Below, piece by piece: positions 2,178-46,505 of a stretch of 64,000 nt of DNA. The DNA is from Onthophagus taurus (taxonomy: Eukaryota; Arthropoda; Insecta; Coleoptera; Scarabaeidae), in assembly GCF_036711975.1 (NCBI RefSeq), contig NC_091972.1, positions 687,001 through 751,000 of the forward strand, read 5' to 3'. The notes under the pieces are model-generated. The model was not told the DNA's origin and made no database searches. It saw nothing but the letters and a program-made list of their open reading frames with translations. Positions within the stretch are counted from its first letter, which is position 1; the number at the start of each line of letters is the position of its first letter. The position numbers were made by a program, and so were the translations under genes.

Positions 2178-3052
2178 TTAGTAACTAATAAATAATAGGT
2201 GATTTGTTGTACCCATTTTATAATTAATATAAATTATAATAACTAATATTCATTAGGAAAAGAATGTAATTTTAATGAAAATAAGAAATATGACGAAAGT
2301 TAGAGTCTGAAATATTTTTTTTAAGTTATCTTTTTGAATCTATTAAAAATGATTTGAAATGTTGATTACTATTACCACTAATTTATAGAATCACGCGGCT
2401 TTGCTTTGTGCAAACCACATTAATAATAACGTATACTTACTCATATTTCGTTACATGTTACATCAACATATCCATTTGCACATAATCTCAACTCTGTACT
2501 TAAAAAAATGCTAATTGAATAACAAATTACGGGTCTATATGATCTGCCGGATTATTTTGTATAGATTAAAAAATCAGGTAAAGTAAATAATGTTGCTAAA
2601 TTATATTTTTTGTGTTCAAAGAAAACTTATTTAATTAAGAATTATATAATTTATTACTTTATACTACATTTCAATTGTACACGAAAAATGTTACGAGTTA
2701 AACTTTTTTGTTTATTTAAAAGACTGCATGTAAATACATGTTAACACGAATTAATGTTATAATGTGATTCTGATCTGTGTATTACGGAAATAAAAGAAAA
2801 ACACAAAAAAAAAGAAACTTAAAATAAACAACACCTAACAACAAAATATTGGTCCAAAAAGAATAAAAGTTTTTACTTGTTGTAAGTAAGCACGTTGTAA
2901 ATGGAATCGATCCATTAATCCTGTAGGTAGCAATGACAAGGAATGTTTGTAAAAATACTCATTTTGTTAATGAACAAATAAAATTACTAAGATTATATTC
3001 CATTTTTTAAATAATATAAGTTGCAATACTCAACGGTTTTAATTTGATAACA
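2178..3052. other. AT-rich 3' flank, no gene seen
   Basis: This stretch is probably the 3' UTR and downstream flank of the preceding exon. AATAAA occurs at 2187-2192, too close to the stop to be likely, and again at 2789-2794. I see no open frame, RNA gene or repeat in it. Confidence 0.5.
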
Positions 3053-3237
3053 TTGATTATATCCGTGATTTTAATTATGTCTATAATTAAAAAATTTAAA
3101 TGCTTTATTAATTAAGTCTATTATAGTTAAATATATTATAAGAACTTTTTTGTTAATTTGCTGTATCGATTTTTTTCTACCTCTTTTTACACAAAAATAT
3201 ATTTATTTATGCCTTAAAAAATTCTTAACATTTTTGT
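3053..3237. repeat. Direct repeat, left copy, flanking satellite array 1
   Basis: About 185 bp starting with TTGATTATATCCGTG recurs at 4874-5059 with only a few differences, in the same orientation. The two copies bracket the 173-bp satellite array. This suggests a segmental duplication or an unequal exchange that included the array. Confidence 0.8.
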
Positions 3238-3252
3238 ATTTTTTTTTAAATA

Positions 3253-3420
3253 AAAAGTAAGTATTAAAAATTAAATATTCAAAGCTTAAGTAACGTAAAA
3301 AATTTTTGGTAAATTACTGATATTACCTTCCTTACACGTAAAAAGAGTAAATTAACAGAAACTACAGACTGCTACACTTTCAGGCTTCATTTTAATTGTG
3401 CCTGTAATACCAATAGCAAT
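3253..3420. repeat. Dispersed repeat, also at 7176-7427
   Basis: The stretch from AAGTATTAAAAATTAAAT to GTAATACCAATAGCA recurs at 7176-7427 in the same orientation. The second copy carries an extra block of about 70-80 bp in the middle. The satellite array begins exactly where this copy ends. Confidence 0.75.
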
Positions 3421-4872
3421 AATTGGGTTCAATCTTTTTATGGATCTAGTCTTTATGGTCCATTACTAAGGTTTTATGTATAAAAAGTATTTCTCCATCG
3501 CTTTTATTTTATGAGTTATGATTGAGTTAATTTTCGAAAATCGACAATTTTGATGTTTAACCGGTTTAGAGCTTATAAATAAATAATGGTAATAATTGAA
3601 TTCAATCTTGTTATGGATCTAGTCTTTATGGTTCACTACTAAGGTTTTATGTACAAAAAATATTTCCCCATCGCTTTTATTTTATGAGTTATGATTGAGT
3701 TAATTTTCGAAAATCAACAATTTTGATGTTTAATCGATTTAAAGCTACTAAATAAAGAACGGTTATAATTGGGTTCAATCTTTTTATAGATCTAGTCTTT
3801 ATGGTCCATTACTAAGGTTTTATGTATAAAAAGTATTTCTCCATCGCTTTTAGTTTTTGAGTTATGATTGAGTTAATTTTCGAAAATCAACAATTTTGAT
3901 GTTTAATCGATTTAGAGCTTATAAATAAAAAATGGTAATAATTGGGTCCAATCTTTTTATGGATCTAGTCTTTATGGTCCATTACTAAGGTTTTATGTAT
4001 AAAAAATATTTCCCCATCGCTTTTAGTTTATGAGTTATGATTGAGTTAATTTTCGAAAATCAACAATTTTGATGTTTAATCGATTTAGAGCTTATGAATA
4101 AAAAATGGTAATAATTGGGTTCAATCGTTTTATGGATCTAATCTTTATGGTCCATTACTAAGGTTTTATGTACAAAAAATATTTCCCCATCGCTTTTATT
4201 TTATGAGTTATGATAGAGTTAATTTTCGAAAATCAACAATTTTGATGTTTAATCGATTTAGAGCTTATAAATAAAAAAATGGTAATAATTGGGTTCAATC
4301 TTTTTTTGGATTTAGTCTTTATGGCCCATTACTAAGGTTTTATGTATATAAAGTATTTCTCCATCGCTTTTAGTTTTTGAGTTATAATTGAGTTAATTTT
4401 CGAAAATCAACAATTTTGATGTTTAATCGTTTTAGTGCTTATAAATAAAAAATGGTAATAGTTGGGTTCTATCTTTTTATGGATCTAGTCTTTATGGTCC
4501 ATTACTAAGGTTTTATGTATAAAAAATATTTCCCCATCGCTTTTATTTTATGAGTTATGATTGAGTTAATTTTCGAAAATCAACAATTTTGATGTTTAAT
4601 CGATTTAGAGCTTATAAATAAAAAATGGTAATAATTGGATTCAATTTTGTTATGGATCTAGTCTTTATCGTCCATTACTAAGGTTTTATGTATAAAAAAT
4701 ATTTCCCCATCGCTTTTATTTTATGAGTTATGATTGAGTTAATTTTCGAAAATCAACAATTTTGATGTTTAATCGATTTAGAGCTTATAAATAAAAAATG
4801 GTAATAATTGGGTTCAATCTTTTTATGGATCTAGTCTTTATGGTCCATTACTAAGGTTTTATGTATAAAAAA
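3421..4872 (+). repeat. Satellite array 1, about 173-bp monomer, about 8.4 copies
   Basis: A marker string (GTCTTTATGG) recurs at about 3449, 3622, 3795 and 3968 and onward, giving a period of about 173 bp. Each monomer carries GAGTTATGATTGAGTTAA and a CGATTTAGAGC box. Monomers differ by a few percent. The same satellite recurs at 8576-9967 inside DHX30 intron 3. No coding potential is seen. Confidence 0.92.
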
Positions 4873-4873
4873 T

Positions 4874-5059
4874 ATTGATTATATCCGTGATTTTAATTAT
4901 GTCTTTGTAAATAAAAAAATTAAATGCTTTATTAATTAAGTCTATTATAGTTAAATATATTATAAGAACTTTTTTTGTTAATTTGCTGTATCGATTTTTT
5001 TCTACCTCTTTTTACACAAAAATATATTTATTTATGCCTTAAAAAATTCTTAACGTTTT
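4874..5059. repeat. Direct repeat, right copy, flanking satellite array 1
   Basis: This is the second copy of the block at 3053-3237 and begins at the point where the last satellite monomer is cut off (AAAATATTGATTATATCC). The orientation is the same as the left copy. Confidence 0.8.
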
Positions 5060-5532
5060 TGCCTTTTTTTTATTAAAATGAGGTAAGTATTGTAATAATT
5101 TTAACATTCTCTTAGTTCACCGAGAGAACATAACCTAGAATTTGTGACAGAGAGATTTTTTGTTGGTGAAAATCTCATCTTAAACCGTTTTGTTTACTTT
5201 CAAATGTATCAATTATTGTAGTTCAGCTCCTAAAGCACATTTTTCATCCATCGTTTGAGGTTTTAACGTTATTTTGAGGAAGAAATCCTTGATTTAAATT
5301 TGAATTTTTCCAACTTTACTCATTGTTGAAATTTGGCGTGTACTCCAATGTATGTCTAAAAACAAGAAAAGACAGCGTTGAATACGAAGTTTTATTACGT
5401 TTCATAAAGGAATAAGGGAGAAATCAACGAAAAAAGAATTTAATTTTGAAGGTTAATTCTGAGAAAGATCAAGAGATGACGCTAGTTTCGAAGCAAGAAT
5501 TTTGAATTTTGAAAAGGGCGCGAAGCTAAGAG

Positions 5533-7175: not shown

Positions 7176-7427
7176 ACAGTATTAAAAATTAAATATTCAA
7201 AGATTAAATAACGTAAAAAATTATTGTTCAGGTGCTGAAACTCGATCGGAGTTAGTTCGTTGAAATTTAGTATAAGACGGGTACTGAGATACAGAACACC
7301 ATATTTGCGTAAATCAGTAGCTTTCTTATTACTGATATTACCTTCCTTACACGTAAAAAGAGTAAATTAACAGGAACTGCTACACTTTCAGGCTTCATTT
7401 TAATTGTGCCTGTAATACCAATAGCAC
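7176..7427. repeat. Dispersed repeat, second copy of 3253-3420
   Basis: The same sequence as 3253-3420 occurs here with an internal block (around 7230-7315, containing CTCGATCGGAGTTAGTT) missing from the other copy. It lies just beyond the 3' end of the DHX30-type gene. Confidence 0.7.
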
Positions 7428-7554: not shown

Positions 7555-10500
7555 TTACGAAATCTTAACATCCTCTAAGAGACTATTAAGTATATTTAAC
7601 ATTTCATCCCAATTTTTATTGACATTTTCATTATAAACACCACTGTTTGTTAATTGAAAGATGTAATATTGTAACATTGATTGCAAAACTTCTTTACAAC
7701 TTTGTATCGCCTCCGCTTGGCTGAAAATAAAATTAATTAATATAATAAATAAACTTATAAAATATGTTACCTTCTATCACAGATGTATTTATATTTAGTA
7801 TTCTCTAACTTTAAAAGTACTTGATCGGTTGAGTTAATGTCAGAGGAATGTTCATTTTGAGGTAACTAAAAAACATATAATAATAAATTTTTAAATGAAC
7901 TAAAAACAGTAATAAATACATTTTCTATAATTATTTTATTGTTTTTAAATAAAAGTAGGGTAAGCAATGAGACTAAACTTGTTTCTCTAATTACACTAGT
8001 TCTTCGAACGTTTGAAACAACTTCATTTATATAAATTAAGTAATCACTTGAATATGAAGCGCGTCTGCTATTAACGCTTTCAGTTGTGATTACTGCATTA
8101 TGACCACTTCTAAAAGGCGAATGAAAGTATTAAATAATTGGACGAAAAATATTAAAAATTTTCTTACCTTGTTAATAAAACGTGTTTTTTCTTTTTTCCT
8201 TTTACTTTTGATGAGTATTCCATTAAAGTACCAACACCAGATAGTAAAACTCCTTTTATCAACTCATCATTATCAGATAAATCATCAGAAATTGGTAAAA
8301 CATTTTTCAAATATTTTTCTAAGTATTCAAAATGAATATCTCTTAATTCTAAAATAAATAAATAAATTTTAGAAGGTTTCACTTTCACTAGAATTAGAAT
8401 ATTTCGAGTTCTTTTGAAAAAGTGTTTGATGTTTCTGTATACCAGTGGTGTCCACTAATTTTTGATCAAGATCGACTTTTTATATAAATGTCTTGCCTGT
8501 TTTTTGTTCTGAGGCCCAGATATGGATATTTCAGACTCATGATTTTCTTGGCGATCGACATTATGGCCACCACTGATTTAGAGCTTATAAATAAAAAATG
8601 GTAATAATTGGGTTCAATCTTTTTATGGATCTAGTCTTTATGGCCCATTACTAAGGTTTTATGTATAAAAAATATTTCCCCATCGCTTTTATTTTATGAG
8701 TTATGATTGAGTTAATTTTCGAAAATCAACAATTTTGATGTTTGATCGATTTAGAGCTTATAAATAAAAAATGGTAATAATTGGGTTCAATCTTTTTATG
8801 GATCTAGTCTTTATGGTCTATTACTAAGGTTTTATGTATAAAAAATATTTCCCCATCGCTTTTATTTTATGAGTTATGATTGAGTTAATTTTCGAAAATC
8901 AACAATTTTGATGTTTAATCGATTTAGAGCTTATAAATACAAAATGGTAATAAATAGGTTCAATCTTTTTATGGATCTAGTCTTTATGGTCCATTACTAA
9001 GGTTTTATGTATAAAAAATATTTCCCATTCGCTTATAGTTTTTGAGTTATAATTGAGTTAATTTTCGAAAATCAACAATTTTGATGTTTAATCGGTTTAG
9101 AGCTTATAAATAAAAAACGGTAATAATTGGGTTCAATCTTTTTATGGATCTAGTCTTTATCGTCCATTACTAAGGTTTTATGTATAAAAAATATTTCTCC
9201 ATCGCTTTTATTTTATGAGTTATGATTGAGTTAATTTTCGAAAATAAACAATTTTGATGTTGAATCGATTTAGAGCTTATAAATAAAAAATGGTAATAAT
9301 TGGGTTCAATCTTTTTATGGATCTAGTCTTTATGGTACATTACTAAGGTTTTATGTATAAAAAATATTTCCCCATCGCTTTTATTTTATGAGTTATAATT
9401 GAGTTAATTTTCGAAAATCCACAATTTTGATGTTTAATCGATTTAGAGCTAATAAATAAAAAATGGTAATAATTGGGTTCAATCTTTTTATGGATCCAGT
9501 CTGTATGGTCCATTACTAAGGTTTTATGTATAAAAAATATTTCCCCATCGCTTTTATTTTATGAGTTATGATTGAGTTAATTTTCGAAAATCAACAATTT
9601 TTATGTTTAATCGGTTTAGAGCTTATAAATAAAAAATGGTAATAATTGGGTTCAATCTTGTTATGGATCTAGTCTTTATCGTCCATTACTAAGGTTTTAT
9701 GTATAAAAAATATTTCCCCATCGCTTTTATTTTATGAGTTATGATTGAGTTAATTTTCGAAAATCAACTATTTTGATGTTTAATCGGTTTAGAGCTTATA
9801 AATAAAAAATGGTAATAATTGGGTTCAATCTTTTTATGGATCTAGTCTTTATGGTCCATTACTAAGGTTTTATGTATAAAAAATATTTCCCCATCGCTTA
9901 TAGTTTTTGAGTTATAATTGAGTTAATTTTCTAAAATCAACAATTTTGACGTTTAATCTATTTAGAGCAGTGGTGTCCACTAATTTTTGATCAAAATCGA
10001 CTTTTTATATAAATATCTTGCCAAGATCAACCGAAGGGTTTAACCTTCCTTTTTTTTTGCTCTGAGGTTCAGATATAGATATTTCAGATTTATGATTTTA
10101 TCGATGTTATGGACACCACTGCTGTATATGATGTAAGTCATCATGAGCAATAAGGCTCCATAACATCAAAAAAAAACGGATACGCAGACAACTGGATGCT
10201 GACTACCAATCATAAAGAATTGGTGACTACTGAGCAAATACCAATAAATGACCTAGCCACCCTGAGGAGATATTTCCGCGATTGGAGATTGCTGCACAAA
10301 GTCACCAAGAGTCCCAGTTTAACAACAGGATGGCCTAACTTACAGGTTTTCACAAAAACTTAGTTAACATATTTTGTCAAACTAACTGATTCGTCAAACG
10401 CTTTTCCAAAAAACGCATGGCTTAACCCGAAACTGTCTAGTTCTAGGTCGAGCATTAGTTCTAGTTGTAGTTTATACAGGGAATTTCATATAACTCGCAA

Positions 10501-13500
10501 TATATGAACTTGCACTGTCCCATATAAAACGCAACATAGCTTAATAGTACAGGCATTGGGTAGTTTTGCAAAGGAAAACTTTTGCTTGGGAAAAAAGAGA
10601 CGTCCTTATGATAAGTTTCTAGTTCTAGGTCTAGTGTTAGTTCTAGTTTTAGTTCAATAAAAATATGAAACATAATGATATTTTATAAAGTCCCTAGATT
10701 TACAAAGTACCGCGGTTTGCCGCCATTTTGGCTCGAAAATCAAGCGGGAAATTTAAAACTATGACGTTTTGTTGATAAAATTATGCCAAGTTTAGTTTCT
10801 TTTTTTTCTCGTGGTACTCTGAAGAGTCGAAAGCCCTTCTTACTGCTATTTTTGCAACTCCAAAGGCAACACGACGGCATTATTTTTGTAAAACATGCAC
10901 TGACAAGCTGTCAAACCGTCATTTTGGCTCGAATATTTCGAATACACAGGCTTCATGAACCGCGGTACTTTGATAATCTAGGGATTTTAATATTTTATAT
11001 TAATTAGCGCTGCCTACCACTGTCACTAAAACTAACATTAGACCTACAACCAAAAACATTGAGACATGTTGCATTTTATGTTGGACAAAGCAAGTAGATA
11101 CACCCTGGTTTCTATACAAATATTAGTTGTATATGAAATTTACTGTATAACTTTGTTATAATAAAACCTCTCACGTTGTAAAGTATGCAATTTTGATTCA
11201 ACTAAATTATTTCTTAAACAAAATCGTTGCGCTGCATTAATTTCATCAGTTTCAATGTATTCTAACCATTTTTCAAACATTTTCATTAAAGATAAATGAT
11301 CGCTGCTACTACAAAAAGCTTTTTTAATTTTTTTAACCGTTTCCTTGCAGCGTAATCCGCCCATAAAGAGTTCTTTTTCTTCAGAAAATAACGTAACAAT
11401 ATCGATTATTGGGGTAACGCATTTGAAAACCATTGCATTTACCATAGTTTTAGCTAATTTCGGCTCTAATTGAAAATTGGCTAATGCGCGACCAAGTGTT
11501 GTTAAATTTTCATCTATATCTAAAAGTTCCAAATCAATCAATTCTTTAACAGCCAATTTTATAGCATCATCGCTTGGTGGTGAAATTAACTGGCTCATGA
11601 ATTCGATTGCGTTCATATTGTTACTGTAAACTTTACTATCAAGAACGATTTTTGTGAGGGATGTTCTTAAAATTTCTGGTAGTGGATATTCTTCGAAGTG
11701 TTCGCATTTTTCTTTAGGATATAGATGAAAACTTTCGCCAGGTTGACATCTTCCAGCTCGTCCTTTTCTCTGTTTAACATTTGCTTGGGAAATCCAAGAT
11801 TTATCTAAACAAGTTACGCCTTTGGTTATATCAAATCTAGTTTCCTTCTGTATTCCTGTATCAATGACGTAAACAACATCATCCACGGTTACGGAAGTTT
11901 CAGCAATATTTGTTGATAAAATAACTTTGCGCATTCCCCGAGGGGGTTTTGAAAATATTAATTTTTGTTCCACCATCGAGAGCCTGGAATGTAAACATAA
12001 CGTACGAATATCGCGACGATCTTCTAGTAACTCCGCAATCGTTTTAATCTCTTCCCAACCAGGTAAAAAGCACAAAATCGCACCATCTCCTTTATTGTTA
12101 TGAATATAATCGATTAGTTTTACCACTTCTGGGCAAACAACGTGCGGAATTTTAGATTCGCACATTTCCAAAGTTTTCGAAAAATTTAATGAATTAGCGT
12201 TGTTAATAAAATGTTGTTTTACGGGATATGTAAAACCAGGAATATTAAAAACTGGGGACGATTTAAAATATTCTTGGAAAATTCCCGCATCAATTGTAGC
12301 GGACATAACAACAAGTTTTAAGTTTTTATTCTTCTCCAAACCTGAACGTAAAAGATTCATTAACAAATCGGTGTTTACATCCCTTTCGTGTGCTTCATCT
12401 AGAATTACGTGAGAACAGTCTAAGAGATGTGGATCTGCTTGCATTTTTCGTAAAAGAATTCCTGTTGTACAGTATAGAATTTTTCCCAATCGTGGACAAA
12501 ATGAATTTTGTAAACGAACTTGATATCCAACAGTTTTTCCAACCTAAATGTAAAATAATAATAATTACATAAGTTTACATAGACTTGGTTATAAATCGTT
12601 TTTTAACCTTCGAGGGGGCGCGCTGTCATCAAATTTATGACAATTTTCGTTTTTATAATATATCTCCTTATATTATGCATTTGAAACGATTTAACGCTAA
12701 AGTATTCATGTAACTATGTCTTTTGGACACGTCAAACGTCAAAACTGACATTTGAATGACATATTGAAGATTAAATTACAATTTTCTTACAATTTGACAT
12801 TCTTAATGACAGGTCAACCTCAATTTTTGCTACCAATTCACGTTCTAACTGTAAAATTCGATCATTTTGCATCACAAGAAAATTAAAACGTCAAAACTGA
12901 CATTTGAATGACATATTGAAGATTAAATTACAATTTGACTTTCTTAAGGACAGGTCAACCTCAATTTTTGCTACCAATTGACGTTCTAACTGTAAAATTC
13001 GATCATTTTGCATCACAAGAAAATTTTAACGTCAAAAGTGACATTTGAATGACATATTGAAGATTAAATTACAATTTTCCTACAAATTGGCATTCTTAAT
13101 CACAGGTCATCCTCAATTTTTGCTACCAATTGACGTTCTAACTGTCAAATTTGATTATTTTGCATCACACGAAGATTTTAATGCCAAAAGTAACATCTAA
13201 ATGATAATTTAAAGATAAAATTGACAGTTTGACATTTTTAATGACAGATTAACCTTAATTTTTGCTACCAATTGACGTTCTAACTGTAAAATTCGATCAT
13301 TTTGCATCACAAGAAAATTTTAACTTCAAAACTGACATTTGAATGACATATTGAAGATTAAATTACAATTTTCTTACAATTTGACATTCTTAATGACAGG
13401 TCAACCTCAATTTTTGCTACCAATTGACGTTCTAACTGTAAAATTCGATCATTTTGCATCATAAGAAAATTTTACCGTCAAAAGTGACATTTGAATGACA

Positions 13501-16500
13501 TATTGAAGATTAAATTACAATTTTCCTACAAATTGGCATTCTTAATCACAGGTCATCCTCAATTTTTGCTACCAATTGACGTTCTAACTGTCAAATTTGA
13601 TTATTTTGCATCACACGAAGATTTTAATGCCAAAAGTAACATCTAAATGATAACTTAAAGATAAAATTGACAGTTTGACATTTTTAATGACAGATTAACC
13701 TTAATTTTTGCTACCAATTGACGTTCTAACTGTAAAATTCGATCATTTTGCATCACAAGAAAATTTTAACTTCAAAACTGACATTTGAATGACATATTGA
13801 AGATTAAATTACAATTTTCTTACAATTTGACATTCTTAATGACAGGTCAACCTCAATTTTTGCTACCAATTGACGTTCTAACTGTAAAATTCGATCATTT
13901 TGCATCATAAGAAAATTTTACCGTCAAAAGTGACATTTGAATGACATATTGAAGATTAAATTACAATTTTCCTACAAATTGGCATTCTTAATCACAGGTC
14001 ATCCTCAATTTTTGCTACCAATTGACGTTCTAACTGTAAAATTCGATCATTTTGCATCACAAGAAAATTTTAACGTCAAAAGTGACATTTGAATGACATA
14101 TTGAAGATTAAATTATAATTTTCTTACAATTTGACATTCTTAATGACAGGTCAACCTCAATTTTTGCTACCAATTGACGTTTTAAGTGTAAAATTTGATT
14201 ATTTTGCATCACACGAAGATTTTAATGCCAAAAGTAACATCTAAATGATAACTTAAAGATAAAATTGACAGTTTGACATTTTTAATGACAGATTAACCTT
14301 AATTTTTGCTACCAATTGACGTTCTAACTGTAAAATTCGATCATTTTGCATCACAAGAAAATTTTAACTTCAAAACTGACATTTGAATGACATATTGAAG
14401 ATTAAATTACAATTTTCTTACAATTTGACATTCTTAATGACAGGTCAACCTCAATTTTTGCTACCAATTGACGTTCTAACTGTAAAATTCGATCATTTTG
14501 CATCACAAGAAAATTTTACCGTCAAAACTGACATTTGAATGACATATTGAAGATTAAATTACAATTTGACATTCTTAATGGCAGGTCAACGTCAATTTTT
14601 GCTACTAATTGACATTCTAACTGTAAAATTCGATCATTTTGCATCACACGAAGATTTTAATGCCAAAAGTAACATCTAAATGATAACTTAAAGATAAAAT
14701 AGACATATTAATAGGATAAAAAAGAATAAGTCCACGATGATTATTGGAGTTTTTAACCTGACATGGTAAACCCACGCCGTTTTCAAAAAAATTTCACTTT
14801 TTTCTTTAATCCAAAATTATATTTTTAATCATCGGTCCGTCGTAGTTTTTTGTAAGAGAAATTTTTCCACTTGATCATTTTTTCACATGTTCATCATTCT
14901 TAGTTTTTGACGGTAAGAACTTTTTATAATTTTTAATTTTATATCACCAACAAAAAAACCCGTCCACTAGTAATAATTATGTTCCATATTATTCTAGTCG
15001 TACCTGAAGACGTTTTTAGAAAAAGCGAAACATTATTGTACCGAAATTAGAAAAAAATAATAAATAATCATCGTGGACTTATTCTTTTTTATCCTATTAA
15101 TACTCACCATGATGAACCTGGAGGCTACAATTGCCAATAAAATAGACAGTTTGACATTTTTAATGACAGGTCAACCTCAATGTTTGCTACCAATTGACAT
15201 TCTAACTGTTAAATTTGATTATTTTGCATCACACGAAGATTTTAATGCCAAAAGTAACATCTAAATGATAACTTAAAGATAAAATTGACAGTTTGACATT
15301 TTTAATGACAGGTCAACCTCAATTTTTGCTAGCAATTGACGTTCTAACTGTAAAATGCGATCATTTTGCATCACAAGAAAATTTTAACGTCAAAACTGAC
15401 ATTTGAATGACATATTGAAGATTAAATTACAACTTTCTTACAATTTGACATTCTTAATGACAGGTCAACGCCAATTTTTGCTACCAATGGGGTCATACAC
15501 ACTTATTAAATTTAGAGAAAATTTTTATGTCAAACGATATATGCAAGTATATGCATGAACACAAAGTAAAAGAAATATTTTGATCAATTTTATATTTTGC
15601 GTAATTTGAAGTGAAAAATTGCAAATATTTAAACGAAATAATTTCGCGGCTTTTCTGTGACGTAGGAACCGCACTGCCTAAAACAAGTTAAATTGTCCGT
15701 TAGATAGCGCTTGCGGTGTGACAGTGTCAAAATAAAACCATGGATGTAATAGAGTGTCTCTATTACATCCATGAACAAAACATAATAAACATAACCTACA
15801 AACACTCTATCTCTTTTCAATACAACCTAAATGACGTTCATCTCTTTCTCGCATTTGAGCGGGTAGCAGGGGACGCAAAAGTGAGAATCACACGTCATCA
15901 ACGCGGGAATTTTAAAAGCGCAAATGGGTATATAAATTTTCAATAATTTTTTTAACAATGACTTTGTTCGAAAATATTTTTAAAAAAAATAACGGTAACT
16001 ATATTTTTATATAAACTTTCAGAAAATATAATAAAAAAAAAATCGTGTATGACCCCATTGACGTTCTATCTGTAAAATTTGATCATTTTGCATCACAAGA
16101 AAATTTTAACGTCAAAACTGACATTTGAATGACATTGAAGATTAAATTTTAATTTTCGTACAATTTGACATTCTTAATGACAGGTCAACCTCAATGTTTG
16201 CTACCAATTGACGTTCTAACTGTAAAATTCGATCATTTTGCATCACACGAAGATTTTAATGCCAAAAGTAACATCTAAATGATAATTTAAAGATAAAATT
16301 GACAGTTTGACATTTTTAATGACAGGTCAACCTCAATTTTTGTTACCAATTGACGTCCTAACTGTAAAATTTGATCATTTTGCATCACAAGAAAATTTTA
16401 ACGTCAAAACTGACATTTGAATGACATATTGAAGATTAAATTACAATTTTCTTACAATTTGACATTCTTAATGACAGGTCAACCTCAATTTTTGCTACCA

Positions 16501-19305
16501 ATTGACGTTTTAAGTGTAAAATTTGATTATTTTACATCACACAAGAATTTTAGTGCCAAAAGTAACATCTAAATGATAGCTTAAAGATAAAATTGACAGT
16601 TTGATATTCTAAATGACATATTTAGCTTATTTTCTGCTACCAATTGATATTGTAACTGTCAAATTCGATCATTTTACATCACAAAAAAAATTGTAATGTC
16701 AAAACTGAGATTTGAATGACATTGAATGATTTATAAATTATAGAAAGTTACCTTGTACTTGATTTTGATTACAAAAAATTAAAATCTCAAAAATGACTCA
16801 ACTTAGGTATAGAGTATGTAACATACAAGTGGCCTAAAATTGAACAAAAATTTAAAAAATGTATTAAAATACAGGGTGTTCCATTTGAAATATGAAAATA
16901 TTATAGTTAAAAAGCTGGTCTGCAAATTTTCAAACCCCCACTTCATTATATATATATATATATGATATATGTGCATTTTTCAAAAAACCCTAATTATCTC
17001 CCAAACTATAAATGCTAGGTATAGGACATATGGGTGTAAAAAATGTAAAAAGAGACACCCAAGACGACTAAGTAATAAAATATGGGGGGTGCCATTTAAA
17101 AAAATGAAGTTATGGTACTTCCAAGTTTCGAAAAGTTAACGTGCCATAATAAAGTGGCCAAACGTTCTAGACAGCCGTTCTCGGCACCAAAACATACTCC
17201 ATCATGTTGCTTAAGCATGTTCTTAATCCCAAATTGATATCCCAAAAATCGAGTGTTCTCTGATTTTTTGAACAAATGTCTGTTGAAGCAGATTTTTCTA
17301 GAAAAATTCGAATAACTCGAGAACGGCCGAATCAAATTGCAAAAAGTAAAGTAAATCATAAACCTTGAAAACAGACAAATCCAAATATGTAAAAATATAC
17401 AGGTGTACCGTTTAAAAAAATAAAGTAAGTGACGACTTCCGGTATAACCGGAAGTGCTAGAAATTGATAATACTTAAATCTGAATTATCAAACTTTTATT
17501 TTGGCCAGAACCCTGTATAGTTCTAATGGACGGTCGTCGCGAATGACCCTGTATAAATTAAATATTTTACTCTAGCAAAATATGTTTTATTAAAAATAAC
17601 GTAATACTTATTAATACGGACCTGATTTCATAAAATTTATGACACGCGCCCGCTCCTGTTATAAAATCGGCCAGCTCAAAGGTTAAGGTATGAGTTAGCT
17701 TTTTTTGAAAAACTTTTTAAAATATGCTTATAATTTTATTATGCATGATATTTTTACCTGTTCATTTCTTTCATATGAAACACGTTCAGCTAAACTAATA
17801 GCAGCTATTCTTCTAGGTTGGGTAACAAGAATTTTGCAATGTTCTTGATCCTGACTTTTAGCCCAACCTTCCAAAAGATACTGAGGAACTCTGGTACTTT
17901 TACCACAACCAGGTTCACCTTTAATAATAGTAACTTGATTATTATTTACAGCTTCAATAATGTCATTTCTACAAAAAATAAACATCAAAAAAAAATTAAA
18001 TAATTAAGATTTGTTGGTTTACTTGTATTTTGATATTGGTAGATTAGTTTTCTCTTCAATAATGTGCATGAATGATTTTTTTTGTGCTCGACGTTGATTT
18101 GGAAATAATTCTTTGCGCTCTTCATTTAAACTATCATCTAAATTTATTGAATAATCAGGTAGACTTTTAAGCAATTTCTCTTGATAAATCATGTTAATTT
18201 TATTTAATTGTTTTACTGTATCATCTTTTAAACTAATTATTTTTGATTGTTGCTTTTCATTAATTTTTTCTTCTTTCAAAATTGGAACACCACGTGAGCT
18301 AATCAAATTTAAAGACTGTAAATAGTTCAAAATTTCGACGCAGACTTTTCCGGCGGCTTCTTTTTTTGAAAAACCAGATTTTGTGAATACAATCTCCTCA
18401 GGCCATTTTACATGATAAGTACAAGCCCAAGGTAAGTGATGATGTTTTAAGTGAGTATAAGATGTTGTAACACCATAGTCTTTATTTAATTGAGATGAAA
18501 TGATGTTGTAATAATTGTGAATAGTTGATTTTGGGGTTAAAACAATTTTATCTGAACTTGATTGGTTGGGTTGAACTGGTTTTGGTTTTTCTGATGTTAA
18601 ACTTCTAAGATTATATCGCGAGGTTGTTGTGATGTTGCGTTTAGGTGTTAAAGAAGTTTGCGCGATCATATTATTTTTATTTATATCTAAAATAGCGCTT
18701 CTAAACAGATTGGTTGGTCCCCATTTACGTTGATTCTCATATCTTGCAGTAACATCAACAAAATCATTATAAGTTAATAGTTTTTTGTCATTAATAAAAT
18801 TGTTTTCTTTTAAAACTTGTAACACTTCTAAGGAGCAGCTCTGTAAAGCTAATTTTCTCGATTGTCCAATAGACCGTATGTTGACTTTTATTGGATATTT
18901 TAATTTTAATGTACATTGAATAAAATTATTTATGTTATCGTATTGTGGTGATAAATTAAACTTTATTTTTTGTTGTATCGAGTATTCTTCATAGAAACTT
19001 ACCACAGTTTTCCAGGGACTTAAAGATTGCACCTTTTTTTTTGGCGTTACCTTTTTCTGTGTATCTTGTACAAGATTTGTTGGTACATTCTGATTCTCTG
19101 AATTTCTAATAGAAGATATTCTATCATTTATTGCTGATGTTAAGATTTTATCACGTTTTCTTTTTGATTTTCTCCCCATGCTTATAACATTTAACAGCAA
19201 ACTTGAGTTTCTTGTACCTTCTCGAAAGAACGTTGAAAAACAAAACCCGGTTTTTGCGCTCATGGCGCGATATTTTAAAGAACTGGATTTCCATAGAGTT
19301 AACAT
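7555..19305 (-). CDS. DHX30: DHX30-type DExH-box RNA helicase, complete, 7 exons, 1164 aa
   Basis: Coding exons on the minus strand: 19305-18023, 17968-17758, 12543-11175, 8348-8168, 8109-7920, 7865-7771, 7720-7555. All junctions are GT-AG and the phases add up to 3495 nt without a stop. The N-terminus (M1-I41) is basic with few acids, like a mitochondrial presequence; a second Met (M43) starts the basic GRKSKRKRDK. Two dsRNA-binding-like segments follow (LKLKYPIKVNI; YHVKWPEEIVF then GFSKKEAAGK). Motif I GEPGCGKST is at 445-453, DEAH at 547-550, SAT at 579-581, STNIAETS near 708, QRKGRAGR at 756-763, then HA2 and OB-fold segments (DNDELIKGVLL, SSDYLIYINEVV). Human DHX30 is about the same length and acts in mitochondrial RNA granules and mitoribosome assembly. 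The split linking TLQ to QLRDIHF fits the family only with the donor at 11174. Introns 2 and 3 hold satellites. Confidence 0.9.
8443..8575. mobile_element. hAT-like MITE, left boundary of a composite element
   Basis: This 133-bp unit has ends CAGTGGTGTCCA and a right end reading GGCCACCACTG, close to perfect inverted repeats. Its left flank is CTGTATAC (8435-8442) and its right flank is ATTTAGAG (8576-8583). The right flank does not match its own left flank, but both match the flanks of the second copy at 9968-10121. Confidence 0.8.
8576..9967 (+). repeat. Satellite array 2, 173-bp monomer, about 8 copies
   Basis: The monomer and orientation are the same as in array 1 (3421-4872). The array starts with ATTTAGAG and ends with the same eight bases, each adjoining a MITE. 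It lies within intron 3 of the DHX30-type gene (8349-11174). Confidence 0.92.
9968..10121. mobile_element. hAT-like MITE, right boundary of a composite element
   Basis: This 154-bp unit begins CAGTGGTGTCCAC and ends GGACACCACTG, and is related throughout to the 8443-8575 copy with a short extra block. Its left flank is ATTTAGAG (9960-9967) and its right flank is CTGTATAT (10122-10129). Confidence 0.8.
10122..10690. other. Intron 3 sequence of the DHX30-type gene, with a CTAGTT-rich repeat
   Basis: No gene is seen. Around 10430-10480 and 10615-10660 there is a low-complexity motif of the type TCTAGGTCTAGTGTTAG. Related motif runs occur at 34990-35130 and, in reverse sense, near 36400 and 61720. 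Part of 10470-10560 pairs in inverted orientation with 11030-11140, suggesting the arms of another old inverted-repeat element around the MITE below. Confidence 0.5.
10691..10985. mobile_element. MITE with TCCCTAGATT / CTAGGGA ends
   Basis: Left end TCCCTAGATTTACAAAGTAC followed by CGCGGTT is mirrored at the right end by ACCGCGGTACTTTG and then AATCTAGGGA, giving inverted repeats of roughly 28 bp with a few mismatches. The interior repeats CATTTTGGCTCGAA once on each side. It lies in DHX30 intron 3 and has no coding capacity. Confidence 0.75.
14712..15096. mobile_element. MITE with TTAA flanks inside satellite array 3
   Basis: The ends are inverted repeats of over 30 bp: TAGGATAAAAAAGAATAAG, then TCCACGATGATTATT, mirrored by AATAATCATCGTGGA and its continuation. 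TTAA lies directly outside each end (14708-14711 and 15097-15100), the target preferred by piggyBac and Kolobok elements. The flank is satellite, showing that it inserted after array formation. There is no coding capacity. Confidence 0.78.
15489..16056. mobile_element. MITE with GGGGTCATACAC ends inside satellite array 3
   Basis: The left end GGGGTCATACAC is mirrored by GTGTATGACCCC. It splits the satellite box CCAATTGACG, leaving CCAAT on the left and ATTGACG on the right, which is best explained by a 2-bp AT duplication. Inside is a near-perfect palindrome at about 15738-15773 (CATGGATGTAATAGAG and its complement). Open frames inside are not recognisable proteins. Confidence 0.78.
16868..17530. 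repeat. Dispersed repeat with ACAGGGTGTTCC start, related to 61363-63830
   Basis: Segments such as CCCTAATTATCTCCCAAAC, CACCAAAACATACTCCATC and ACGGCCGAATCAAATTGC recur near 61370, 62360 and 63570. A TA microsatellite lies near 16949-16968. The start ACAGGGTGTTCCATTTG and the later ACCCTGTATAGTT look like inverted ends. It lies in DHX30 intron 2, next to the satellite. Confidence 0.6.
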
Positions 19306-19611: not shown

Positions 19612-19818
19612 CAATTGAATTCAACCCAACGTGTGTTCGGTGTGTACGCTGAACGAAAGTAAATTGCTCCGAATAAGTAAATAAACTGCCCCGTGGTAAG
19701 TTTTAAGTGTTTAACTGTTATTGTTTGTTATCCCTGTCCTGTTAAACTATCTGTATCATAATATAACTTAGAATATAAAGAATAAAAACCAAAAAAACAC
19801 ATTGAAAGCGATCCTAAA

Positions 19819-21444
19819 ATGGACTCCGAAAGCGGAGGTGGTACGCCACCTCCAATTTTAGCTTCTTTTATTAATCTTATTGACGAAAGTAATAAAAAAA
19901 CGACCGCAGCGAATATAATTGACTATTTAGAAAGTAATATCGGAAATATTGACGAAGCGACTTTGGCTGAAATTTTATTATCAAAAGATATATTACTTGA
20001 AACACGTGATTGCCTGAAATTGGGTTTTTATACCAACCAGAAAGGCCTCAAAGCGCCTATATCAAACCAGACAGTTGAGTTATGGACCAAAGTGTTAATT
20101 AAAAACGATATTGCGTTCATACCCAAGCCAAAATTGTTATATTTAAGTAAGGATTATGCTCCGTTCATAGTCTGTATCGAATCATTAGATAAAAATATTG
20201 GACAAATGCGAGACCTTAAGATTGGTAAGATGCTATACAACAATAAAACAGAGGGCATAAAAAAAATTGAGAAAAGAGGGAGAAATAGATTGGAAATTGA
20301 ATTCCACAGTAGAAAATCTGCTAACAACTTTATAGAAAGTGACATATCCAGCAAAAATGGCTGGAGGTCGTTCATTCCAAACCACAGGATCACGTGCAAG
20401 GGCGTAATCCGTCGAATAGACCCAAACCTGACCGAAGAAGAGCTTCTATCACATCTCGAAACCGATGGAGGCGAAAGAGTATTACATGTGCACCGTATGA
20501 AGAGAAGAATCATGACTGAAGACGGAATCCAGTATGTAAACACAGCATCAGTAGTTGCCACATTTAGAGGAATTGTCCTTCCATCAACTGTATCGCTCTT
20601 CTTGTGTATTCGTCACCCAGAACCGTATATTGCCCCCGTTATCCAATGTTACAACTGTCTCCGTTATGGACATACGGGATCTCAGTGTAAATCAAAAGAA
20701 AGATGCCCAGCCTGCTCCCAGGAACACAAATTAGAGTTTTGTACTAACAAAGAGAATCCAAAATGTACCTTTTGCGGAGAAAACCACCTTAGCAATGAAA
20801 GGGGCACCCCAGCAAACCAAAGAAAATGTCAAGAATATGTAAGACAAAGAAAAATCAAGGAGGTGATGACGAAATATAGCTACTCTTTTTATGAAGCCGC
20901 ACAAAAGGTAGGTGGGGAAACACTAAATAATCAAAGAAATTCTCCACTGTTAAGCCAACTGATAGTCGATCCTAAAAGATATCCAGAACTAAAAACCATG
21001 AGCAGAAGTGAGAATAGACATCAAATGTCAAAAGATGGATACCTGGAAACAACAACTCAGCATAATGATCTCAAGAAAAATTATAAAAAGACAATCACTA
21101 TCTCACAAAAGCCACCTACAACCACTCTACCAGGAAAAAGACGAAAAACAGACGTTCCAAGTGAACTTCTGTTTACCAACAACTCCGATAAAAAAACTCA
21201 TAAAAACACCCCACATTGGGATGACCACACTTCGTCACAACCCATTATAACACCCGGACCGCGACAGGTTCAAGATTGGTACATGGACTCCGAGGCGGGG
21301 CCCTCCACTTCCAGCACCGAGTACAAAGACAGCGGAAGCAAGATGCAAGAGAAAATAACACCCCGCTCCCCCAAAAAATTGGACAATCAAATAGGTAAGG
21401 AACATGCATATTATAACATGTATCATGTCTTGGACAATGAATAA
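19819..21444 (+). CDS. LINE ORF1: gag-like RNA-binding protein, 541 aa
   Basis: This is the nucleic-acid-binding protein of the retrotransposon, which coats its RNA. Three zinc knuckles lie in a row near residues 277-340: CYNCLRYGHTGSQC (CX2CX4HX4C), CPACSQEHKLEFC and CTFCGENH with a distal Cys in QRKC, the arrangement seen in I-factor-type ORF1 proteins. The N-terminal third is acidic and unremarkable; the C-terminal third is Ser/Thr/Pro/Lys-rich and looks disordered. The ATG at 19819 is the first in the frame after a stop-filled leader. The stop at 21442-21444 overlaps the ORF2 start by 8 nt in another frame, so ORF2 is probably made by reinitiation. The frame is completely open, which suggests a young insertion. 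Confidence 0.88.
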   Translation: MDSESGGGTPPPILASFINLIDESNKKTTAANIIDYLESNIGNIDEATLAEILLSKDILLETRDCLKLGFYTNQKGLKAPISNQTVELWTKVLIKNDIAFIPKPKLLYLSKDYAPFIVCIESLDKNIGQMRDLKIGKMLYNNKTEGIKKIEKRGRNRLEIEFHSRKSANNFIESDISSKNGWRSFIPNHRITCKGVIRRIDPNLTEEELLSHLETDGGERVLHVHRMKRRIMTEDGIQYVNTASVVATFRGIVLPSTVSLFLCIRHPEPYIAPVIQCYNCLRYGHTGSQCKSKERCPACSQEHKLEFCTNKENPKCTFCGENHLSNERGTPANQRKCQEYVRQRKIKEVMTKYSYSFYEAAQKVGGETLNNQRNSPLLSQLIVDPKRYPELKTMSRSENRHQMSKDGYLETTTQHNDLKKNYKKTITISQKPPTTTLPGKRRKTDVPSELLFTNNSDKKTHKNTPHWDDHTSSQPIITPGPRQVQDWYMDSEAGPSTSSTEYKDSGSKMQEKITPRSPKKLDNQIGKEHAYYNMYHVLDNE

Positions 21445-24400
21445 CAAACAACTAAAAGTAATGACATGGAACGCTAGGAGTATTATTAAGAACAAACCAA
21501 GCCTCTTTGGATTCCTTAAAGATAACAAGCAAGACGTTATAGTCGTCTGTGAAACATGGCTAAAAGAAAATATACATTTTACAACCCCAAATTATTACCA
21601 CATCAAAAAACTGAGAGATGATGGATATGGAGGCCTATCGGTCCTCATAAGAAAACCTCTTGTTTACGAGGAGATTGCTATAAGAGAACCAGTAGTAAAC
21701 ACTCATTTCATTAAAATTAAAATCAATAATATCAATTTAATTGCAGGCTATATTCCTCCGGATTCGCATTTTACAATCGAACATTGGAGACAGGTGTTAT
21801 ATGGAACAGACGAGAATTACATCATTACCGGAGACTTTAACGGACACCACAGGACGTGGGGTTGTGCCTATGATGATCTTAAAGGAAAAGCTCTTCAAGA
21901 GATTATTACGGAAAGAGATTTGCAAGTCCTAAATGACCGTCGACCGACACTTTTTACATACGCCAAGCAGAATCAAAGTATAATCGACCTAATCCTGTCC
22001 TCGGAAGAGTTGGTCGATAGAATAAACTGTTACACCGGATGGGACACACTTGGCAGTGACCATTTTCCGGTCTTTGCAGAAGTAATAGTATCAGACGCCA
22101 GATATACCAGGATACCAACTATAAAGAAAATTCCCAATAGGCCAAAAACCAGAGACTGGGGAAAATACCGAGAATTTTTGGAAAGCAAGAGTTTAAATAA
22201 AAATATAACATACGAAAACTTTGCCAAAAACATGCATGATGCGGTCGAGAGTGTCGTTATAAAAGACGAAAGAAAACGAAGAAACCCGTGTCCTTGGTGG
22301 GATGAAGAATGCCAGAGAATGGTAAACATAAGACAACATGTAATTAAGATTTATATGAGAGATAGAACTGAAATCAATTTTGTAATTGCCAAGAGACATA
22401 TAGCAACATCCAAAAGGTTCCTATTGCTAAAGAAGAGAATGCATTTTAGAAATTTCTGCAGTTCCTTAAACCGAGAGACACCGATTGGAGACATTTGGAG
22501 AAAAATTAAGATATATAAGAGGGCAGTATTTAATTCCCACTCTGGGCCGTCAACGGATAATAGGTGGAACGAAGCATTTTTGAACACTTTATGTCCGGCA
22601 TACGTTCCCTCGCTGGAAGAGCTCACCTTGGAGGAACCAACACCAAGCGAACACGTAAACAACGGTTGTGAGGCTTCAATTACAATGATGGAAATAGCGA
22701 GAGCTATGCACAATAGAAAAGACTCTGCTACAGGAACAGACGAAATATCCTACTCCATGCTTAAAAATCTTCCATACGAATATAAAGTGAACCTTCAGAA
22801 TATTTATAATAGATTATGGAATGATAATGAGATGACGTCCGAATGGAGCGAGGTTTCCGTTGTACCTATTCCAAAACCGGGAAAAAATCCAAACGAAGCT
22901 TCCAGCTATCGGCCAATCTCCTTGCTCTCATGTGTTAGAAAGATTTTCGAACGCATCCTAGCGGACAGATTTGACTGGTGGTTTGAGAACAACCAAATAT
23001 TTGATGAAAGTCAGTTTGGATTCAGAAAGGGCAGAGGAGTGCACCACGCCGTTTCGACCTTCGTCGCAGAAATACAATCAACCCTAAAACTTAGAAAATC
23101 TTTATTAGCAGTTTTTGTAGATATCGAAGGAGCTTACGATAATGTTCACATTCCAACGTTGACTAAAATCATTAAGGAAACTGGTGCTCCAGCAAAATTC
23201 GCGTCGATGGTTCACAGGCTGATGTCCCAGAAAATTATAAAACTAAAATCAGATCATAATAATCTTGGCCAAAGAACAAACTACAGAGGACTACCACAGG
23301 GGAGCGCTCTCAGTCCTATTCTCTTTAATATTTACATGTCAGGACTAAATGAGCAAATGGAGAAATTTAAGGTACAAGCCATAACATATGCGGATGATCT
23401 AGTAATTTATTCAGTCTTTGATGATGAGGATGATGCAGCAGTGACAATAAATAGTGCACTGGACTCATTGCGAGAATTTTTAGAACATCGAAAACTTGAC
23501 ATATCACACACAAAAACAAAAGCTATGCTTTTCACGAGGAAAAGAAGTATAGATCGTCCCATACTACACTATCACCAACAAGAAATCCAATACTCCGAGA
23601 ATGTTAAATATCTGGGGTTCCATCTGAACACTAAACTCAGCTGGAAAATGCACGTAAACCATGTACTGAAGGTATGTATAGGCGGAGTAAATCTCATGAG
23701 GTCTCTTGCATCGACAAAGTGGGGTGGAGACCCACTCATTTTGAGTACGTTATACAAGGCCATTATCCGATCTAGATTGGAATATGGGCTATGGATTATG
23801 ATGCCCTTACCTGTGGTCACGATGTCGTCACTCCAGAGAATAGCTTATCAGGCATATCGGCTGATACTGGGAGCCTTAAGATCTTCACCTACAAACGCAT
23901 TGATGATCGAAGCTGGGGAGACGTCGTTGGAAACTAGAGCCAAATTATTGGGGACTAGATTTGCAGTGAGAAGTGTGTCCAGGGTTGGTGGCATGTGGAA
24001 CGACAAAATAAATAAACTGATTATAACCTATGAAAATTTACAAGGATCAAGGGCTCCTCTCATCATTGGGATATACAAGAACATAAGACCATACATAGAC
24101 TATATCTATAAGGATCGAGACCTTGGGGTGCACTCTTTGGTATACGAGACAAGACAATAGCGTCCAATCGTCAAAAGAATTCCTGGCGCTATGTCACGCA
24201 AGGGAACATGCACTGAACAAAATAACATAATAAGAGCAGAGGTGGAAAATTACGTGAAGGAAGAGTGGTCGGCATCCCACCAGTTTTATACAGATGGCTC
24301 CATTCGGAAGGAGAGAGGTGAGAGTGTTGCTTGTGGTATTTATTCTCCTACGATGGCATTAGAAGAACATATACATGTCCCCGAACAGCTATCCATCTTT

Positions 24401-25150
24401 GGGGCAGAGGCTTTCGCCGTATCATTAGCGATCAGAGTGTGTCTGGAGAGAGGAATTACGAAGGCAGCTATTTTGACGGACTCCCTCAGCACAGTCGAAG
24501 CTATAAAAGAATTTAGTTTCAAGACTCGCACGCACCCGTATGTTTTAGAAATAATTGAATTGTTACACAGAGCACATACAAGAGGCCTCGAAATCCACTT
24601 GGCATGGATTCCTGGACATACAGGGATCAAGGGTAACGAAAAGGCGGATCAACTGGCAGCAATGGGTCACGGAGATGAAATTATTGACATCGAAATCCCC
24701 GGAGAAGACATATTCCGAATTCTGCAAAGAAACATACAACAGGAATGGGAGAGTGAATGGAAAACAACATCTAAACTGAAAGGTATCAACTACGCAAAGA
24801 TACAACCATCCATTCAAAAAGTACCCTGGTTCAGAAGCGGACCCTTTGTAAATAGACAATTTTATACCTTGATATCAAGATTAAGACTGGGCCACGCCCT
24901 TACACCGGAATACTTACACAAAATTAAACTTAGAGACGATCCTTTCTGCACATGCGGGAAGGAAGGGGATTTTGATCATATCTTTTTTGAATGCAATAAA
25001 TATGAAAGACAAAGAATCAATTTAATTAAAAGTCTGATTGACTTGAAATCTCATCTCCCAACCAATTTAAGAACCCTATTGGCACAAGCATCATTCGATA
25101 TTTACTTGCTGTTATATGAATTTGTAACTCAATCAGGAATTCAACTGTGA
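21437..25150 (+). pseudogene. LINE ORF2: endonuclease, reverse transcriptase and RNase H, one in-frame TAG
   Basis: The ATG at 21437 overlaps the ORF1 end; an upstream ATG at 21404 is also in frame. The APE-type endonuclease shows TWNARSI, ETWL, GDFNGHH and SDHFP. The RT shows FVDIEGAYDNV, GLPQGSALSPILFN and YADDLVIY (about residue 651). The RNase H domain shows YTDGS, GAEAFAVS, LTDSLSTV and WIPGHTGIKGNEKAD, followed by a C-terminal Cys/His cluster (CTCGKEGDFDHIFFEC). A single TAG at 24158-24160 separates RT from RNase H; the frame is unchanged on both sides, so 1237 residues would be read if the stop were passed. This is either a recent nonsense mutation or a site of readthrough; the first is simpler. 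Confidence 0.87.
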
Positions 25151-30342: not shown

Positions 30343-40261
<9,919 letters not shown>

Positions 40262-43049: not shown

Positions 43050-43376
43050 TATAGGGTGTATCTGAATGACTGCAACAAACTTCAAGGGGTGATTCTTTAG
43101 TGAATTTTAAGGGTACTTTTATATATGAACCATGGGCGACTTTGGCTCCTCTAAGGAGCTACACCCCTCCAAAAATGGCGGAAAATTTTGGTTTAATTGT
43201 TTTTTCTCAAAAATCATAAACGCTAGGAAAATGAAATTTGGGGAATATGTTTAACTCATAATAGGGCACGTTTTGACCCTATTTGTACTTTCAACCTACC
43301 CTTCTAAACTACTAAACGTAACCACCCCCGTTCAATTTATGCCTAGATTTTTTTTATGAAGATGATACATAAAGTT

Positions 43377-43655
43377 GGAATGAATTTTTAATGAAAAAAT
43401 CTTAGTAGGCTTTGCAATCTTTGTCAGAAATATTTTTGACGTTTAAATGTCAGTGGTTTTCCTACTATTATTATTGTTTTATTTAAAATTTTGAAATGTC
43501 GAGTGAACGAGCGTAAATGCGATAGAACTTTATTTAAAATTTAATTTGAAAAACAATAATAATAGTAAGAAAACCACTGACATTTAAACGTCAAAAATAT
43601 TTCTGACAAACTTTCCAAAGCCTACTAAGATTTTTTCATTAAAAATTCATTCCAA
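43377..43655. repeat. Hairpin repeat inside element 3
   Basis: The sequence from GGAATGAATTTTTAATG to about 43490 returns inverted from about 43530 to CATTAAAAATTCATTCC. The loop is about 40 bp. It has no coding capacity. Confidence 0.75.
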
Positions 43656-43761
43656 CTTTTGATCGACAACCCCAATGTTTAACGTGCAGTATTTTTTTTT
43701 CTCAAAAATTAGTCGTTTTTGGAAAAATTTTAGAGAGACAAAACAGTTTTAGGATACTTTC

Positions 43762-46146: not shown

Positions 46147-46505
46147 ATACTTTCATCTACCTAGATAAAATTTTTGTAATGTATTTATCATCTGCATAAA
46201 AAAAATATTAGCAAAAATGTGAAGGGGGTGGTAACGTTTAGTAGTTTAGAAGGGTAGGTTGAAAGTACAAGTAGGGTCAAAACATGCCCTATTATGAGTT
46301 AAACATATTCCCCAAATTTCATTTTCCTAGCGTTTATGGTTTTTGAGAAAAACAAATTAAACCAAAATTTGCCGTCATTTTTGGAGGGGTGTAGCTCCTT
46401 AGGGGAGCCGAAGTCGCCCATGGTTCATATATTAAAGTACCCTTAAAATTCGCTAAAGAATCACCCCTTGAAGTTTGTTGCAGTCATTCAGATACACCCT
46501 GTATA

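Follow-up and report, generated by a model that had tools for sequence, protein, structure and literature searches.

The window, as the whole 64,000-nucleotide stretch of Onthophagus taurus DNA analyzed here is called, carries a DEAH-box helicase gene on its minus strand. Open frames of this gene lie at 19311-18019, 18003-17728, and 12543-11140; the first contains a dsRNA-binding motif that scores under the Pfam cut-off, and the last contains a Helicase_C domain. DHX36 and other DEAH helicases are the closest matches of the helicase frames among solved structures. An exon-like stretch at 8167-8350, which is without a Pfam match, probably belongs to the same gene. About 92 bp upstream of what is probably a 3′ splice site of the helicase gene, as placed by splice signals judged by eye, lies a composite of two MITEs and a satellite array with the following features:

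8167 to 8350, minus strand: probable exon of the host DEAH-box helicase gene, with splice-like signals judged by eye
8435 to 8442, no strand: left outer target-site duplication (TSD) CTGTATAC by direct reading, with TA at positions 4-5
8443 to 8575, plus strand: left MITE unit of lineage B, with outer 5′ TIR CAGTGGTGTCCA and inner 3′ TIR altered to TGGCCACCACTG
8576 to 8583, no strand: ATTTAGAG, inner flank of the left MITE and positions 1-8 of the first monomer
8576 to 9967, plus strand: satellite array of eight 173-bp monomers plus 8 bp (1392 bp)
9960 to 9967, no strand: ATTTAGAG, inner flank of the right MITE; the preceding monomer has the C variant typical of right edges
9968 to 10121, plus strand: right MITE unit, oriented as the left one, with both TIRs of the unaltered CAGTGGTGTCCA type
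10122 to 10129, no strand: right outer TSD CTGTATAT

The layout (left MITE 8443-8575, satellite 8576-9967, right MITE 9968-10121) was established by sequence reading together with repeat and pattern tools. In a pattern search of the window, CAGTGGTGTCCA starts at 8443 and at 9968, both times on the plus strand, and its complement is matched perfectly by 10110-10121 and with a single mismatch by 8564-8575 (TGGCCACCACTG). The outer flanks CTGTATAC and CTGTATAT are identical at seven of eight positions, ATTTAGAG stands at both ends of the array, and the flank pair of either MITE on its own is mismatched. The MITE–array–MITE structure given in the preliminary description, with its outer match of 7/8 and its identical inner flanks, is thereby confirmed. 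A single MITE with internal tandem repeats, of the miDNA4 type, was considered and ruled out: each complete composite contains two MITEs and a total of four TIRs.

Taken alone, the outer match in the window is weak, because target sites of the family have a common TA core and 10 of 272 pairs of outer flanks from different loci also agree at seven or more positions. Such agreements are what would be expected if a TA-rich target preference had produced a coincidental outer match around an array and MITEs joined by chance. For the family, this explanation is refuted by the TSDs, empty sites, and linkage described below, and its probability is close to nil. The same family-wide evidence places the flank match in the window beyond chance.

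Genome-wide scans covered an assembly of 290.8 Mb. Exact-pattern scans detected 54 left and 42 right junctions between MITE and satellite, and backward-pattern controls gave none. When left and right junctions are merged within 10 kb, at least 73 genomic places with an exact junction are obtained. The composite, which had been treated in the preliminary description as a single event at the helicase intron, is instead one member of a multicopy family. The largest composite seen (L003/L029, C3:24442209-24450505) is about 8.3 kb long, with 46 monomers and the perfect TSD ATGTATAG. At L010 (C11:23761897-23762475), all that is left of the right MITE is a near-palindromic TIR pair followed by an inverted ATTTAGAG, a fold-back type of end.

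Queries with the MITEs alone, in which the best 40 of 275 candidates were scored for one MITE and the best 40 of 288 for the other, led to 49 loci. Satellite lies within 30 bp of the MITE in 48 of these loci, which represent the best matches to composite-type units and overlap in several cases, while lone MITEs of other subtypes would rank lower; the remaining locus, L011, is a lone MITE. The 83 canonical 5′ ends comprise 20 right-unit inner ends, 14 left-unit outer ends with exact junctions, 12 ends paired with a 3′ end no more than 320 bp away, and four paired with a 3′ end further off. The other 33 lack both an exact junction and a nearby 3′ end and were left unclassified. Ten of 11 newly fetched near pairs are lone MITEs, as is L011, and the remaining one (L083) belongs to the L027 composite as its right unit and was not counted, giving 11 lone copies. 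The flanks of two lone MITEs, L081 and L086, resemble each other, so these are probably copies within one larger repeat.

A common satellite 24-mer is present in 279 of 440 distinct monomers and has 1535 exact copies across the assembly, from which roughly 2400 monomers, or 0.4 Mb, of the 173-bp satellite can be extrapolated. The first 100 matches listed for this 24-mer span 8.86 Mb from the start of contig C1, where they form 13 clusters by manual grouping. Twelve clusters have a MITE end, two of which were counted via a MITE 3′ end that lies some 0.7 kb past the last 24-mer match, without the junction being read; the cluster L074 has no MITE at either end. A MITE-free visible end is seen in L069, L070, L071, L073, L074 (both ends), L075 (right), and the window at 3418-4876. 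The latter is a second array of the 173-bp satellite that lacks MITEs and has arbitrary monomer phases at both ends. It lies between duplicated local flanks, with 3049-3265 found again at 4871-5091 and parts of 3260-3417 found again at 7178-7425; these flank repeats match locally only.

Movement of the composite as one unit is recorded in its flanks. The outer ends of the two MITEs carry one TSD, while the flanks of each individual MITE differ. In composites with both ends, the outer octamers match at 8/8 positions in 13 of 17 cases and at 7/8 or more in 16; only 6/8 match in L014/L056. Not one of the 272 control pairs from different loci reaches 8/8. Five loci whose right outer end was unrecognized (L005, L008, L018, L038, and L047) are not part of this table. 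TA occupies target positions 4-5 in 39 of 40 outer-left flanks. Lone MITEs have a TSD of at least 7/8 in seven of 11 copies, and it is perfect in L085 and L011.

Empty sites were sought by comparing joined composite flanks with the genome, and the best 40 of 2156 candidates were scored. For three composites, paralogous empty sites were found that have a single exact octamer and are free of MITE and satellite. The sites of L007 (L059 and L060) are gapless, as are two sites of L055/L036 (L061 and L062); a third site of the latter (L063) contains two gaps, of 3 and 2 bases, to the right. The site of L028 (L068) has 82% identity and a 9-base gap directly left of the octamer. A site for L040 (L064) is gapless, but its octamer has diverged (ATGTACAG), and candidates for L002 and L014/L056 have gaps across the octamer and were left uncounted. 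No empty-site match for the composite in the window was present among the 40 scored candidates. An empty site that lacks the array but keeps one MITE, which the preliminary description had named as evidence against its model, was not seen among the empty sites found.

Together, these observations provide direct evidence that whole satellite arrays were moved as blocks by the MITE pair. Exchange between MITE copies by recombination or gene conversion, which would have added monomers to resident MITEs without joint transposition, is very improbable. MITE pairs could provide the homology for such exchange, and monomers are indeed mixed between loci (see below), but the outer duplication belongs to the pair, and the empty sites, which are without either MITE, contradict this explanation. 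Joint mobilization of the outermost ends with an 8-bp target duplication, and the resulting spread of the satellite, had been suggested in the preliminary description; TSDs, empty sites, cis linkage, and edge variants all support it.

The linkage concerns two diagnostic bases. At the inner TIR of the left unit, the base is T in 34, C in 20, and A in none of the 54 exact junctions, and the corresponding base at the outer end of the right unit is A in 20/20. The inner end of the right unit reads CAGTAG in 21 and CAGTGG in 21 of the 42 exact junctions. In cis, the left and right bases are combined as T-A in 11, C-G in eight, T-G in one, and C-A in one composite (19/21 in the two main combinations, Fisher p 0.0004), which distinguishes two lineages. 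By its two diagnostic bases, the window copy is of the C-G type.

Monomers at the edges of the array carry variants of their own. The monomer that adjoins the right MITE has the C variant in 16 of 23 loci, compared with five of 333 distinct interior monomers, and this holds for both lineages. In the first monomer after the left MITE, position 36 is A in 24/35 (13/19 in lineage B and 11/16 in lineage A) versus 4% of 325 interior monomers. Since these edge variants are common across loci and the diagnostic bases are linked in cis, many independent insertions are disfavored. Duplicate loci (L009, L019, L030, and L039) were skipped in the unit and monomer counts, and the removal of further overlaps reduced 455 monomers to 440 distinct ones. 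At the level of sequence comparison, the composite junctions are shown to be of common descent.

Trees of the MITE units, which are short and were read without support values, agree in the main with a left/right grouping. In the first tree, the left units form one group and the right units fall outside it, with L004_R and L053_R (truncated) as outliers. The second tree left out these two as well as units below 125 bp, and L003_L and L040_L were relabeled as right units. In it, most right units cluster together, the right unit of the window stands beside lone MITEs, and midpoint rooting does not recover the left units as one clade.

The arrays range from 2.9 to 46 monomers in 21 left–right pairs, and 18 of these are within 0.1 of a whole monomer count after the extra 8 bp are subtracted. 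Divergence between distinct monomers is 5.8% within one array and 7.0% across arrays. For 176 of the 440 distinct monomers, the closest relative lies in the same array, so the arrays were not regrown from one monomer per site. Monomers matched by index are slightly closer than others; among 300 permutations each, the observed value was reached in 0 for lineage A counted from the left, 2 for B left, 3 for A right, and 114 for B right. This barely elevated similarity suggests that interior monomers have largely been reshuffled. Judged by these comparisons, edge monomers retain some positional identity and interior monomers hardly any.

How the founder arose can be approached from the inner flanks. 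ATTTAGAG ranks second among the 173 sites of the monomer when these are scored by the target-site profile of the family, which was built on 38 octamers with L010 and one repeated octamer excluded; a MITE insertion at this site is therefore plausible. The preliminary description had proposed that two MITEs inserted at this same site in different monomers and were mobilized jointly afterward. In its favor, ATTTAGAG is found on both inner flanks, and one tree groups the right unit of the window with lone MITEs. Against it, both MITEs have the same orientation at the same base, and the consensus sequences of left and right lineage B units are 98.8% identical over 160 columns. Furthermore, the consensus left units and the lineage A right units have a middle segment in common that is absent from the lone-MITE consensus, in which L083 was still included. 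Other MITE-in-satellite insertions were not found either: an exact left junction within 600 bp across the same MITE is present for none of the 42 exact right junctions, and among the 89 merged MITE intervals of the fetched loci, not one is bordered by satellite on both sides. Two independent insertions are thus unlikely and were not borne out. The preliminary description had regarded a lack of MITE-in-satellite insertions at ATTTAGAG elsewhere as contrary to its model; the sequences searched contain none, which concerns the origin step alone.

The common middle segment favors one insertion followed by duplication, and a single MITE insertion that was then duplicated with monomers is most likely, being the simpler reading of the sequences than two independent insertions. 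Units of the composite diverge from their own consensus by 2.4-2.6%, compared with 4.9% in lone MITEs (a value that includes the misplaced right unit L083). As no MITE has satellite on both sides, the donor locus is missing from this material. It is possible, though less likely than not, that the satellite instead began as a single 173-bp spacer between two MITEs that expanded inside the element, with stray arrays being broken composites. This origin would account for the lack of a MITE flanked by satellite on both sides, for the MITE end on 12 of 13 sampled arrays, and for the limited number of 24-mer copies in the assembly (only 1535, with positions taken from the first 100 listed). It is countered by the arrays whose MITE-free ends lie at arbitrary monomer phases and by the resemblance of ATTTAGAG to a genuine target site within the monomer; moreover, large heterochromatic arrays may be absent from the assembly.

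The composite is, with high confidence, a non-autonomous composite hAT DNA transposon in which two MITEs in direct orientation enclose the 173-bp satellite array, and which most likely goes back to a single founder that later spread. Its MITEs have the short TIRs starting with CAG and the 8-bp TSD of the hAT superfamily, and the TA preference given above corresponds to the TSD consensus nnnTAnnn of the Buster group. By these features and its common descent, the family can be classified as hAT macrotransposons (composite transposons) with a Buster-like target. Transposition as a unit, spread, and variable array length have been demonstrated by the data.

In the proposed mechanism, a MITE at ATTTAGAG in a satellite monomer would have been duplicated along with monomers, most likely once, to give the founder. 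A Buster-type hAT transposase acting in trans would then pair the 5′ end of the left MITE with the 3′ end of the right MITE, excise everything between these outermost ends, and reinsert it at nnnTAnnn, generating the 8-bp duplication. Two lineages would subsequently have arisen from the founder and reached at least 73 places, while the array length drifted between about 3 and 46 monomers. The altered inner TIR of the left unit may favor use of the outer ends and could thereby help to keep the pair together. In lineage A, the outer left end is altered as well (CAGTGTTGTCCA), yet this lineage moved; single changes are therefore tolerable, and the lock model is unproven. A wider reading, in which the satellite is a standing macrotransposon cargo, most of its chromosome-arm copies were placed by composite transposition, and the altered inner left end makes the composite rather than the MITE the spreading unit, is put forward tentatively, at somewhat less than even confidence.

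A source of the transposase was sought among Dimer_Tnp_hAT matches. An intact autonomous partner was not found when the best 150 of 1076 candidates were compared with 169 canonical ends. A single one of the 150 (C3:16220155) has a canonical end no more than 6 kb away, and about one is expected by chance according to our own estimate. The fetched stretch around it (L058, 4801 bases) contains no second matching TIR, and repeats are seen by eye on both sides; the locus was rejected as partner, and its transposase looks like part of another element. The 1521-bp element at positions 115-1635 of L087 has about 40 and 77 bp of its ends in common with the MITEs, at 90-92% identity, and is flanked by TTCTATAC on both sides. 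It contains broken coding-like remnants, possibly of a hAT-like transposase, whose pieces score below the Pfam and NCBIfam cut-offs and have no PDB match under E 0.7. This element appears to be a relic of a longer element with MITE-type ends. Its interior also has a weak 28-base match (86%, E 2e-5) to satellite positions 135-162 on the opposite strand, in an AT-rich stretch. In the window, long inverted ends (by eye) at 43060-46500 surround a broken hAT transposase with a Dimer_Tnp_hAT match at about 44010-44252; as far as it was read, this element is outside the MITE family of the composite.

Helentrons are of the rolling-circle type, and their transposition mechanism differs from that of the composite. 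Like the oyster Helentron, the composite is a mobile element that scatters short satellite-like arrays (PMC7492417). Excision and reinsertion of units have been reported for maize Ac/Ds macrotransposons (PMC9910405, citing Huang and Dooner 2008 and Wang et al. 2022), which share with the composite family linked hAT elements whose outer termini move the intervening DNA with an 8-bp TSD. The maize cases described there are individual alleles with enhancer-containing host DNA as cargo (PMC9910405), whereas the present family is dispersed and multicopy, has MITEs as its ends, and carries a satellite array. Xenopus miDNA4 and bivalve pearl/DTC84 likewise combine MITE ends with a variable number of satellite-like monomers, but their repeats lie inside one MITE (PMC12628747, PMC9659126, PMC5139131), whereas two complete MITEs, whose inner flanks resemble target sites, enclose the array here.

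The TSD consensus nnnTAnnn was described for Buster-group hAT elements, and Drosophila Mar MITEs of this group share it with the composite, together with TIRs starting with CAG (PMC3517528). Mar MITEs are single, and satellite cargo is not described for them in the available part of that source, in contrast to the MITE pair with satellite found here. Satellite-like repeats are also tied to transposon structures in Tribolium TCAST (PMC5844308) and Drosophila virilis Tetris (PMC4079207). The repeats of TCAST lie in the inverted repeats or body of the element, not in an array between two MITEs, and the same reportedly applies to Tetris. No report of MITE-bracketed satellite arrays that move as a composite was found among titles and abstract openings, which covered few subscription journals. 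Mechanistic kin are thus known in the Ac/Ds macrotransposons and the satellite-bearing MITEs; their combination was not found reported in the portions of the literature covered, which is no proof of novelty.

The arrival of short satellite arrays in euchromatin and introns has often been argued from association. Here, TSDs, empty sites, and common edge variants are direct evidence of block movement by a MITE pair, and the composite family provides one concrete route for satellite DNA into genes. With its dozens of comparable insertions, including one that probably lies about 92 bp from a helicase splice site, the family also lends itself to tests of effects on genes and chromatin.

The window contains further repeats. 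A different satellite of 142/152 bp forms arrays with 294-bp periods at 12735-16722 and 31263-34628. A non-LTR-type retrotransposon at 19786-25150 has open frames of 552, 921, and 329 amino acids, the last of which contains an RNase H domain. Identical 17-bp and 117-bp tandem repeats are present at 36417-37394 and 61744-62727, with a spacing of 704 versus 710 bp, which suggests a duplicated segment.
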